From assembly GCF_019050325.1 (NCBI RefSeq), contig NZ_VOMB01000016.1, positions 62,001-126,000 on the forward strand: 64,000 bases of DNA, written 5' to 3'. Positions 45,425 through 48,605 of this stretch are shown piece after piece. The notes below the pieces were generated by a model, which searched no databases, had not been told where the DNA came from, and saw nothing but the letters and a program-made list of their open reading frames with translations. The translations under genes were made by a program, and so were the position numbers. The number at the start of each line of letters is the position of its first letter. Position 1 is the stretch's first letter. The stretch comes from [Mycobacterium] fortunisiensis. Its GTDB lineage: Bacteria > Actinomycetota > Actinomycetes > Mycobacteriales > Mycobacteriaceae.

Positions 45425-46186
45425 TCAGTACGTGTCGAGGGCGAGCTTGACGGCCAGGGCGACGCCGGCCGCGCCGATCAGCCATCGCAGCGGAGTGGCC
45501 GGCGCATGCCGCACGATCACCGGGCCCAGACGTGAACCGATCAGGCACCCGAGGCCCAAGGGCAGCACCGCCGGCCAGTACACCGGGGCGACGACCATGA
45601 ACGCCACCGCTGCCACCGCATTGGCCACGCCGAGGATCACATTCTTGGCGGCGTTGGCATGCGCCAGCGTCGCACCACCGCTCCGCAGCAGCAGAGCCAG
45701 GAGTAGCACCCCGGCGGCGGCACCGAAATAGCCCCCGTAGATGGTGATCAGGAAGATGGCGCCGGCCTCCACGGCGGCCTTGATCCGATGCGCACGATGA
45801 TCGGCCACCCGGGCGGACTGCTGAGCCCGGCGCGGGAGCAGGATCGCCAACGCCGCGAACGCCAGCAGCACCGGCACCACCCGCTCGAAGCCCTCCGCCG
45901 GCGTACACAGCAGCAGGGCCGCGCCCGCCGCCCCACCGGCCACCGCGATGGGGATGACGCGTTTGATCCAGGCCCGCTGTCCGGCGAGCTCGGGGCGTGA
46001 CCCGAGGATCGAACCGACACCGTTGAACACCAGCGCCACGGTGTTGGTCACGTTCGCGGTGACCGGGGGCAGGCCGATCAGCAGCAACGCCGGATAGGTG
46101 GCCACCGAGGCCAGGCCGGCGATGCTGCCGGTGAGCCCCCCGCCGATCCCGGCCACCACAAGCAGGATGACCTCGCCGACGGTCAT
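45425..46186 (-). CDS. TauE/SafE-family permease
   Basis: A 253-residue integral membrane protein with about seven to eight hydrophobic segments. The family-typical GIGGGLTGSIAGLASVATYPAL is at the N terminus and GGYFGAAAGVLLLALLL near the middle. TauE/SafE proteins export sulfite or organosulfonates, but specificity is not predictable. ATG 46186 is used. It diverges from the LeuA-domain gene. Confidence 0.88.
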   Translation of the reverse strand: MTVGEVILLVVAGIGGGLTGSIAGLASVATYPALLLIGLPPVTANVTNTVALVFNGVGSILGSRPELAGQRAWIKRVIPIAVAGGAAGAALLLCTPAEGFERVVPVLLAFAALAILLPRRAQQSARVADHRAHRIKAAVEAGAIFLITIYGGYFGAAAGVLLLALLLRSGGATLAHANAAKNVILGVANAVAAVAFMVVAPVYWPAVLPLGLGCLIGSRLGPVIVRHAPATPLRWLIGAAGVALAVKLALDTY

Positions 46187-46248: not shown

Positions 46249-46254
46249 TAGCAT
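46249..46254 (+). promoter_or_regulatory. -10-like box for leaderless leader peptide
   Basis: TAGCAT lies exactly 7 bases upstream of GTG 46262, the spacing expected when transcription starts at the first base of the leader peptide. No Shine-Dalgarno sequence precedes that GTG. Confidence 0.55.
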
Positions 46255-46261
46255 CGCCAAC

Positions 46262-46303
46262 GTGCCAAGGCGACTCGTAGTAGCAACCCGCAGCGGGGTC
46301 TGA
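46262..46303 (+). CDS. Candidate leader peptide of a leucine/BCAA attenuator
   Basis: A 13-codon frame, VPRRLVVATRSGV, then TGA at 46301. It contains one Leu and three internal or terminal Val codons among few residues. The TGA lies at the tip of a strong hairpin. Actinobacterial leuA genes are known to carry ribosome-dependent leader elements, so ribosome position in this peptide could decide folding. Evidence is positional and structural only. Confidence 0.55.
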   Translation: MPRRLVVATRSGV

Positions 46304-46327
46304 TCAGACCGACCCCTCGCTGTGGGT
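46286..46327 (+). promoter_or_regulatory. Attenuator-like hairpin upstream of LeuA-domain gene
   Basis: ACCCGCAGCGGGGTC pairs with GACCCCTCGCTGTGGGT (one mismatch, one bulge); between them GGTCTGATCAGACC forms the loop side and includes the leader stop codon. It lies 50 bases before the structural gene at 46377. No U-tract follows, so translational occlusion or Rho-dependent control is as likely as intrinsic termination. Confidence 0.6.
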
Positions 46328-46376
46328 CGTTCGCTACTTCGTCGGTCACTTCCTCTGAGCAAGAGACGGCCGGCAC

Positions 46377-46874
46377 ATGAACCACACTTCACCAGCACCG
46401 CACCCGGGTAATCCGACGTCGTTCGCGGCTCACTTCGCCACGCCGCTGCCCCGCGCCCTGCGCGCTGTCGGCGAGTCGGCATCCTGGGAACAGTTCCTCG
46501 GCGAGTACACCGCTGCCCCGGGGCCCGTCCGATTGGGCCAGTGGACCTGCACCGACGCCAATCGTCCGGCGGCCAGGTTGGGCCCCCAGGTCCGGCACTA
46601 CCAGGCCACGTTGGCCGTGGGCGACACGATCAACACATCGAGCGCCGCCGCCAGCGGACCCATCGCCGCCCTGACCGAGATGCTCCACGCATGCGGGATC
46701 ACGGTCGAAACGGTGTCCTTCCACCAATTGCCGACAGACGGCCAGACCGCCACCTTCATCGAAGGCTGCGACGGCTTGCGCAGTGAATGGGCGATGGGGC
46801 TGGCCGGCGACCCCGAACAGTCGGCGCTGCGGGCGGTGATCGCCTGCGCCAACCGGCTGATGGCGGCGGCCTGA
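46377..46874 (+). CDS. Free-standing LeuA regulatory (dimerisation) domain protein
   Basis: A 165-residue protein without the catalytic TIM barrel of 2-isopropylmalate synthase. The C-terminal hundred residues, for example YQATLAVGDTINTSSAAASG, GPIAALTEMLHACGITVET and ATFIEGCDG, follow the pattern of the LeuA allosteric domain, which binds leucine. It may be a decoy subunit, a leucine sensor, or a relic of a leuA duplication. Its leader peptide and hairpin support control by branched-chain amino acids and suggest the gene is functional. The paralog encoding full LeuA must lie elsewhere. Confidence 0.75.
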   Translation: MNHTSPAPHPGNPTSFAAHFATPLPRALRAVGESASWEQFLGEYTAAPGPVRLGQWTCTDANRPAARLGPQVRHYQATLAVGDTINTSSAAASGPIAALTEMLHACGITVETVSFHQLPTDGQTATFIEGCDGLRSEWAMGLAGDPEQSALRAVIACANRLMAAA

Positions 46875-46958: not shown

Positions 46959-48605
46959 GTGAGATCGGGATGGGCGCTCGTGGCGGCTGCCGCGGCGAGC
47001 TGCACGGTGGCGGCGGTCACGGCGACACAACTCTGGGTGGTGCCGAGCAACCGGTCCGCCGAGTTGCTGGCCAAGACGATCCTGGCGATGGGCGGCAATG
47101 GCAACGGCACCGGGCTGCTGATGCAGAACGAGCTCGACGGATACATCAATCCGGGGGATGCGAACTACGGGCTGTGCGCGACGGGGGCGGATTGCACGGG
47201 CGACCAGTTCCAGATCGCCACGTGGAACGCGACCGCCTGGACGCCGGCCTCGGACTTCGATCGCCAGCAGGCCGACGGTGTCGACAGCCTGGACCGCCAG
47301 CTACGTCAGGCGCTGGCCGCCGAGAAGGCGAAGGAGGACGGCGACGAACCAGACGGGGAGGCACGTGTCGTCGTGGTCGGCTACTCATCGAGCGCCGATG
47401 TCGTCCTGAAGGAAATACAGGCGCTGCAGGCGCAGCTTGATGCCGGCGACTCGAATGCGCTCAAACCCGACGAGGTCAGCTTCCTGGTGATGGGTAACCC
47501 CAATCGGCCCAACGGCGGGATCCTGGCCCGGTTTCCGGCGTTCACGCTGCCCATCGCCGGGGTGACGTTCGGCGGCAGCAGCCCCCACACCGACTATCAG
47601 ATCACCGACATCAGCTGGGAATACGACCTGGCCTCCGATGCGCCGGCCTATCTGAATCCGCTGTCGTTCGCCAACGGCGTGCTCGGCTTCTTTTACCAGC
47701 ACAGCTTCTACTTCGGGTTGGACCCCAACACCACCGACACCGACTCGGTGGTGTTCGACGGCTACGACGACAACGGAAATCGCTACATCACGATCTCCGC
47801 GCGACACCTGGCGCTGCTGCAACCGCTCTACGACATCGGTGTGCCCATCCGGATTCTCGACGCTGTCGAGCCCACGCTGAAAGTGCTCATCGACCTCGGC
47901 TACGACCGCGACACGAAGCCCTGGGAAACCAAGCGACTCGCGCTCGCGCCGCCACCCGCACAGGTCGCCGCTGCGATGCCCGAATTGCAGAAGGCGCTGA
48001 CCGAAGGTGCCCAGATTGCGCTGGGACTCAAGGAACCGCCGTCGGCTGACGACCCGGATACCGAGAACGCCACCCTGGCGGTCATCGAGAACGTGCTCGG
48101 TGGCTTCCTGAAGGAAGGGTCGTGGGACACCGTCAAGACCACGATCGAGAACACCTTCGGGATCTCGTTGCCCGATCTGCCCGGTGCCCCGGAGGGCCAG
48201 GCCGGTGCGCCTGCGGAGGCGACGCGCGGGGCGGTCGCGCCGACCCCGCAGGCCGACGATGCCGGCGCGCCGGCCGAGCTGCCGACCGCGCGTCGCGTGG
48301 CCGTACAGGATGAGGCGAGGCCGACCCGCGCCCAGGTCGTGCGCGGCACCGACCATCGTCACAGCAATCCGGTGGGGCGCAAGGGCGAACGGACGGTTGT
48401 TGCCGGGGTCGACGCGATGACCGAGGCATCAGACCGCCGGCCGGGCCGAAGCTCGGCACACTCAGCTCACAAGGTTGCCACGCGGTCACGGGTCGGGACC
48501 AAGTTCGGTCCGGCGAAGGACCAGACCGCGAAGGACCAGACCGCGAAGAACAAGGCGACCAGTCACAAGGCCGCGAGGAGCAAGGCCGCCGCATCGACCG
48601 ACTGA
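46959..48605 (+). CDS. Secreted PE-PPE-domain serine hydrolase-like protein
   Basis: A 548-residue protein. A signal/anchor segment (VAAAAAASCTVAAVTAT) is at residues 8-24. The PE-PPE domain (alpha/beta hydrolase, cutinase-like) runs from about 30 to 310: GGNGNGTG, then VVVGYSSSADVV with candidate nucleophile Ser143. Residues about 415-548 are low-complexity, becoming Lys/Arg/Ala-rich with near repeats AKDQTAKDQTAKNKA. It has no PE or PPE N-terminal domain. It probably acts as an envelope esterase or acyltransferase. GTG 46959 is used. The gene stops 8 bases before the convergent CYP136-like gene. Confidence 0.85.
   Translation: MRSGWALVAAAAASCTVAAVTATQLWVVPSNRSAELLAKTILAMGGNGNGTGLLMQNELDGYINPGDANYGLCATGADCTGDQFQIATWNATAWTPASDFDRQQADGVDSLDRQLRQALAAEKAKEDGDEPDGEARVVVVGYSSSADVVLKEIQALQAQLDAGDSNALKPDEVSFLVMGNPNRPNGGILARFPAFTLPIAGVTFGGSSPHTDYQITDISWEYDLASDAPAYLNPLSFANGVLGFFYQHSFYFGLDPNTTDTDSVVFDGYDDNGNRYITISARHLALLQPLYDIGVPIRILDAVEPTLKVLIDLGYDRDTKPWETKRLALAPPPAQVAAAMPELQKALTEGAQIALGLKEPPSADDPDTENATLAVIENVLGGFLKEGSWDTVKTTIENTFGISLPDLPGAPEGQAGAPAEATRGAVAPTPQADDAGAPAELPTARRVAVQDEARPTRAQVVRGTDHRHSNPVGRKGERTVVAGVDAMTEASDRRPGRSSAHSAHKVATRSRVGTKFGPAKDQTAKDQTAKNKATSHKAARSKAAASTD

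Follow-up and report, generated by a model that had tools for sequence, protein, structure and literature searches.

A valine-coded relative of the leuA leader upstream of a free-standing LeuA-type regulatory domain gene in mycobacteria

In the window (the whole 64,000-nucleotide stretch of DNA analyzed), our computational analysis identified a conserved leader ORF with a defined codon identity, which is homologous to the leuA leader and carries a hairpin (H1) and a pseudoknot helix, in front of a gene for a regulatory domain of the LeuA type (Table 1). The original prediction had placed here a leuA-type leader-peptide and hairpin control region ahead of a gene for the regulatory part of LeuA alone. 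Both parts hold: a covariance model built from leuA leaders only matches the leader, and fold and profile homology identify the 165-aa product as a LeuA-type domain devoid of the catalytic barrel. We favor, with a confidence somewhat above even, the reading that this valine-recoded, paralogous leuA leader controls the free-standing domain through a ribosome switch, and that the domain acts on LeuA/LeuA2.

Table 1. Leader, RNA and gene features identified in the window.
Feature	Position	Strand	Basis
-10 box TAGCAT, TANNNT type	46249..46254	+	Box-to-start spacing across orthologues
Leader ORF VPRRLVVATRSGV + TGA, 13 codons, predicted leaderless	46262..46303	+	Conserved frame in orthologues
Putative sensor codons GTA GTA (Val-Val)	46277..46282	+	73/73 in genus, rare codon, leuA-leader alignment
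Hairpin H1 (ACCCGCAGCGGGGTC / GACCCC-TC-GCTGTGGGT), stop codon in loop	46286..46327	+	Folding, pairing, covariation
GACCGAC, pseudoknot helix 5' strand	46307..46313	+	Pairing with GTCGGTC, covariation
GTCGGTC, pseudoknot helix 3' strand; alternative partner beside ribosome-binding site	46341..46347	+	Pairing, covariation
GGCCGGC by ribosome-binding site, mostly GACCGGC in orthologues; candidate sequestor pairing with GTCGGTC	46368..46374	+	
LeuA/CMS-type regulatory-domain protein, stand-alone, 165 aa	46377..46874	+	AlphaFold, Foldseek, hhalign, dN/dS

The stand-alone protein and its distribution

The AlphaFold model of the stand-alone protein reached a pLDDT of 91 and a pTM of 0.84. In the PDB, Foldseek matched the model best to the leucine-bound LeuA of M. 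tuberculosis (3fig, E 9.2e-9); a further match, at E 2e-5, was the regulatory domain of citramalate synthase from Leptospira in complex with isoleucine (3f6g). Searched alone against Pfam LeuA_dimer (PF08502), the window protein scored 16.3 bits (E 0.009), below the cut-off of 24.9, while 39 of 42 orthologues matched this family at E<=1, the best of them at 1.8e-5; a single-sequence PDB search with the protein returned chance matches only. Profile comparison with hhalign gave E 2.9e-11 for LeuA2 and E 3.7e-7 for LeuA, and the alignment with LeuA2 includes the LPR segment preceding the domain in that enzyme. By these comparisons the protein is nearest to LeuA2, and its gene most likely arose by loss of the barrel from a LeuA2-like ancestor. 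Since invariant residues lie in the segments starting the corresponding helices (G94-P95 and the segment after D145), ligand binding by the domain is plausible, judging from model and alignment.

Of the 199 genomes of the genus, 174 contain an orthologue (E <= 5e-31); the weaker matches are full-length LeuA. In the order-wide search, stand-alone frames of 157-200 aa occurred only in the GTDB family of the window, in several genera, and outside this family full-length LeuA alone was matched. The median pairwise dN/dS of 12 close orthologues is 0.20, and the gene is under purifying selection. In the window it lies between a TauE/SafE gene on the opposite strand (45425-46186) and a PE-PPE-domain gene (46959-48605), the latter separating it from a P450 gene that directly adjoins the stand-alone gene in relatives (e.g. 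L057, L100, L102). A tRNA-Gly/Cys/Val(GAC)/Gly/Val cluster is located near the gene in several sister genera (L156-L161, L164, L169, L173, L174), possibly representing the ancestral neighborhood; no tRNA genes were found in the window. An origin from a mobile element was considered and rejected, given that only one decayed plasmid fragment was found, a frame-broken, leaderless and unannotated copy on the M. chimaera plasmid NZ_CP012886.2 (L210 3001-3124).

The leader may work as we propose while the domain has a target other than LeuA, serving as an independent valine/leucine sensor, as a subunit of another enzyme or as an amino-acid buffer. Orthologue identity of only 51-77%, a capping loop that differs from that of LeuA, and a neighborhood in which no constant association with branched-chain genes was seen point in this direction. 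The leader type and the fold, however, are common to LeuA/LeuA2, with LeuA2 as the nearest relative, and no variation is seen in the glycine-proline turn or in parts of the C-terminal helix; we regard such a different target as rather unlikely, while giving it real weight.

The leader ORF and its valine codons

The TAGCAT box, the gap of seven bases and the 13-codon frame of the original prediction were all recovered on reading the sequence (46249-46303). The mini-ORF opens with GTG at 46262, 7 nt past the box, and reads GTG CCA AGG CGA CTC GTA GTA GCA ACC CGC AGC GGG GTC up to a TGA at 46301-46303, which opens the apical loop of H1. The distance from the TANNNT box is that expected if transcription begins at the start codon itself; this spacing indicates a leaderless mini-ORF, a point absent from the original prediction, with a predicted transcript start on the GTG. 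Leaderless transcripts, in which the start codon provides the first base, are a common mode in mycobacteria (PMC4633059).

Our sample within the genus comprised 74 distinct mycobacterial orthologues, 73 of which carry the leader core; the single exception (L093) has no leader of any kind and a shortened N-terminus. Comparison with these relatives bore the prediction out, as peptide frame, -10 box and hairpin are kept in 73/73 core-bearing orthologues. The mini-ORF, starting with ATG or GTG, is in every case in frame to the conserved TGA, a TANNNT box lies 6-10 nt upstream of its start (exactly 7 nt in 59), and GTA GTA is invariant. Since all 73 retain the frame, the -10 box and GTA GTA, the arrangement is far beyond chance, and a chance origin is excluded. 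The 5' part of the mini-ORF changes by whole codons, giving lengths of 13 codons in 49 orthologues, 14 in 13, 16 in 10 and 17 in one.

Across the GTDB family, 57 of 60 distinct leaders contain at least two consecutive Val codons, and internal Val codons are GTA in 111 of 141 instances; for 35 likely genes in the window the GTA share of Val codons is about 3%, a rough value, as a few of these frames may be wrong. Many family members have GTT as the second Val codon, a synonymous replacement that leaves valine in place. The residue before the Val run is not Leu in 18 of the 57 distinct Val-run leaders. Because Val runs and GTA are enriched and the preceding Leu is not invariant, the conserved sensor would be valine in the rare codon GTA, not leucine. 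Thus, of the Leu/Val frame initially claimed, the Val-Val part stood and the leucine part did not.

Leaders outside the genus include MKRVLVVHRRSGV, MTRILVVRRRSGV and MQRIQVVVHRRSGV. Among the family leaders, those of L116, L122, L123 and L216 hold LLV or just one Val, and therefore leucine, too, may count for sensing. In L113 (genus g7) the mini-ORF stops early, with MKRMKLVFRP followed by TAG and one GTA, and the H1/pseudoknot sequence is retained. The leaders of L117-L120 (genus g2) are 43-44 codons long, and T-runs 3' of H1 in L118-L120 hint at transcription termination in that genus.

A LEU element upstream of leuA was described in Actinobacteria by Seliverstov et al. in 2005 (PMC1262725), and in M. 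abscessus ribosomes protect the mini-ORF of leuA (PMC4974804). The genome of the window encodes two full-length paralogues, leuA and leuA2, of which leuA2 (G000:C9, L056 1370-3251) has its own LEU element. Their leaders, VQRVLLLGRRDGV and MTRVLLLSRRGGA, are both leaderless ORFs of 13 codons and share the stop position and downstream parts with the leader of the stand-alone gene. The suggested comparison with the full-length leuA leader thus revealed homology, with LLL at the sensor position in both leuA-type leaders; in the joint alignment, CTC-GTA-GTA of the stand-alone leader sits on CTC-CTT-CTC of the leuA type. Wherever leader and downstream frame are both readable, Leu runs precede full-length LeuA and Val precedes the stand-alone gene.

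A covariance model (R2) built from 10 leuA/leuA2 leaders, with stand-alone leaders left out, matched the stand-alone leader in the window at E 1.2e-8, aligning the sensor codons to the Leu codons. Genome-wide, the same leader was found at E 9.9e-7, behind only the two leuA-type leaders, with the next match at 0.198. A joint model of both leader kinds recovered three elements in this genome (E 2.5e-22, 2.1e-19 and 1.3e-15), followed by a match at 0.011 only. It also had matches in 97 of the 101 genomes from the family, with all 31 genera represented, and in 91 of the 121 from the order; some other family genomes have at least four matches. By alignment and covariance model, then, the stand-alone leader qualifies as a homologue (paralogue) of the leuA LEU element. 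The idea that the stand-alone protein is a general LEU-element-binding protein was discarded, as LEU elements are found throughout the order also where the stand-alone gene is absent.

The leader could instead be a protein-binding RNA element, a role proposed for the LEU element by Seliverstov et al. (PMC1262725), in which the mini-ORF would be of minor importance and the peptide conserved only through the RNA. Much of the leader core is conserved at the nucleotide level, and there is the mutational paradox of Streptomyces, in that codon mutations in S. coelicolor leuA did not behave as in classical attenuation (Craster 1999, as reported in PMC1262725). Nevertheless, start codon, frame and -10 spacing survive the whole-codon length changes, the strand opposite GTAGTA varies whereas GTAGTA does not, the GTA/GTT changes preserve Val, and the choice of Val or Leu codons follows the type of downstream gene, all of which makes this explanation unlikely. 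We consider it very improbable that the gene is a decaying, functionless leuA remnant with a leftover leader, as the decayed plasmid copy in M. chimaera and the missing leader in L093 might suggest, in view of its presence in most genomes of the genus and in several further family genera, its low dN/dS and its nearly invariant leader.

RNA structure and the proposed switch

The 128 bases at 46249-46376 fold at -56.1 kcal/mol (z = -3.3; 2 of 200 shuffles were equally stable), and the stop codon lies in the H1 loop, in agreement with the strong hairpin and the stop at its tip that had been claimed. Among 64 leaders, 98% of cells are paired in the lower part of H1, 99.5% in its upper part, 97.7% in the pseudoknot GACCGAC:GTCGGTC and 89% in GTCGGTC:GACCGGC beside the ribosome-binding site; slid controls gave 4-69% over these four helix parts, and 14-45% for the last of them. 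When leuA leaders are included, H1 covaries at two central pairs (AU/GC/UA and GC/AU), and one position of the pseudoknot helix alternates between AU (12 cases) and GC (10 cases). The corresponding covariation test covered 14 pairs, with 95% of cells paired and 24 cells changed on both sides. Its covariation score and double-changed cell count were reached by 0 of 500 shuffles, a comparison in which descent alone lets related sequences exceed shuffles, although the slid controls are also far lower.

Because both helices pair far above the slid controls, GTCGGTC appears to have two competing partners, GACCGAC on the loop side and GACCGGC. In each of the 65 leaders checked, 3-5 nt separate the TGA from the GACCG motif, and at this distance a terminating ribosome would cover GACCGAC, the first of these partners. 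Opposite GTAGTAGC lies a GCTAC segment located 5' of GTCGGTC, and the start region is instead paired by GTCGGTC/GACCGGC. We rejected GTAGTAGC:GCTAC as a conserved base stem, since its 3' side varies and 67% of cells are paired (a value from columns partly misaligned in longer leaders). No U-run characteristic of an intrinsic terminator was found by reading after H1 within the window, and an Rfam search on both strands, up to E 5, returned only a chance microRNA match.

In the mechanism that we favor, transcription would start on the GTG of the leaderless 13-codon ORF, and ribosomes on the two GUA (Val) codons would either pass to the stop at the tip of H1 or slow, and probably stall, when Val-tRNA is short. 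The position of the ribosome would then decide whether GUCGGUC pairs with the loop side of H1 or with the sequence by the ribosome-binding site. Pairing with GACCGAC (the pseudoknot) would leave the ribosome-binding site free, and pairing with GACCGGC would block the start; control would be translational rather than transcriptional. Ribosome states were modeled by removing the 5' part, as by a ribosome at GTA or at the stop. In pseudoknot-free folding, start-site accessibility was the same for the stalled and the terminated ribosome (0.36 v 0.35), being higher in the stalled state in 25 of 52 leaders. Nested folding, equal for both ribosome states, thus gives no support to the simple antisequestor scheme, and the switch, though plausible, is not reproduced by simple thermodynamics.

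The small product has the same fold as the domain by which LeuA and citramalate synthase bind leucine or isoleucine. Most economically, it would be produced under valine shortage and serve LeuA/LeuA2 as a regulatory subunit acting in trans. 2-Ketoisovalerate is the common precursor of valine, leucine and pantothenate, and under scarce valine a subunit restraining LeuA would let less of it drain towards leucine. More tentatively, and at odds we would place well below even, leader and regulatory domain may have been duplicated together, the barrel lost and the Leu codons replaced by rare Val codons, with valine setting leucine flux family-wide through a trans allosteric subunit of alpha-isopropylmalate synthase.

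If our reading is true, this system is a natural experiment, in which the amino acid sensed by a leader was changed while the RNA machinery was kept. The Val-recoded leader would offer a direct route to deciding if codons are read by the LEU element at all, a question that dates back to the 1999 Streptomyces results. A near-universal mycobacterial gene would gain a function that can be tested, at the point where the valine, leucine and pantothenate pathways branch, and valine supply may govern precursor flow to leucine in nearly all mycobacteria and close relatives.

Relation to known systems

Earlier work describes the LEU element, the mini-ORF of leuA and the regulatory domain of LeuA; for the Val-coded paralogous leader, its peptide or the stand-alone gene, no description was found in the open-access papers searched or in Rfam. 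Like the LEU element (PMC1262725), to which it is homologous, the stand-alone leader has a short leader ORF, a stop within a hairpin, a pseudoknot, and a ribosome-binding site in a paired region. Unlike the LEU element, it carries Val (GTA) sensor codons instead of a Leu run, the gene 3' of it encodes a barrel-less product of 165 aa rather than full-length leuA, and a separate GTCGGTC/GACCGGC stem is present in place of the base stem between sensor codons and ribosome-binding site. The protein, in turn, has fold and profile homology in common with M. tuberculosis LeuA (PDB 3FIG) and Leptospira citramalate synthase (PDB 3F6G), but in contrast to both it is a natural free-standing gene product without a barrel, with an identity to LeuA of about 22-24% in the structural alignment.

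Attenuation has been described for ilvB1 in M. tuberculosis (PMC13236596), and leader-peptide attenuators for ilvB/ilvBNC in Corynebacterium (PMC10272879). With these systems the stand-alone leader shares a short leader ORF that contains branched-chain codons and lies ahead of a branched-chain metabolism gene; it differs from them, for which a terminator hairpin is described, in that no U-run follows H1 and leader homology was not seen. Likewise, the hairpin plus U-run that marks the intrinsic terminator of a classical leader-peptide transcription attenuator was not found here.

A further parallel lies at the level of the protein. IlvN/IlvH are separate small amino-acid-binding regulatory subunits of acetohydroxyacid synthase. 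Full-length LeuA already has a regulatory domain of its own, and homology is not expected; the stand-alone protein would resemble IlvN/IlvH by functional analogy only, as a small protein exerting trans control over an enzyme of branched-chain metabolism.
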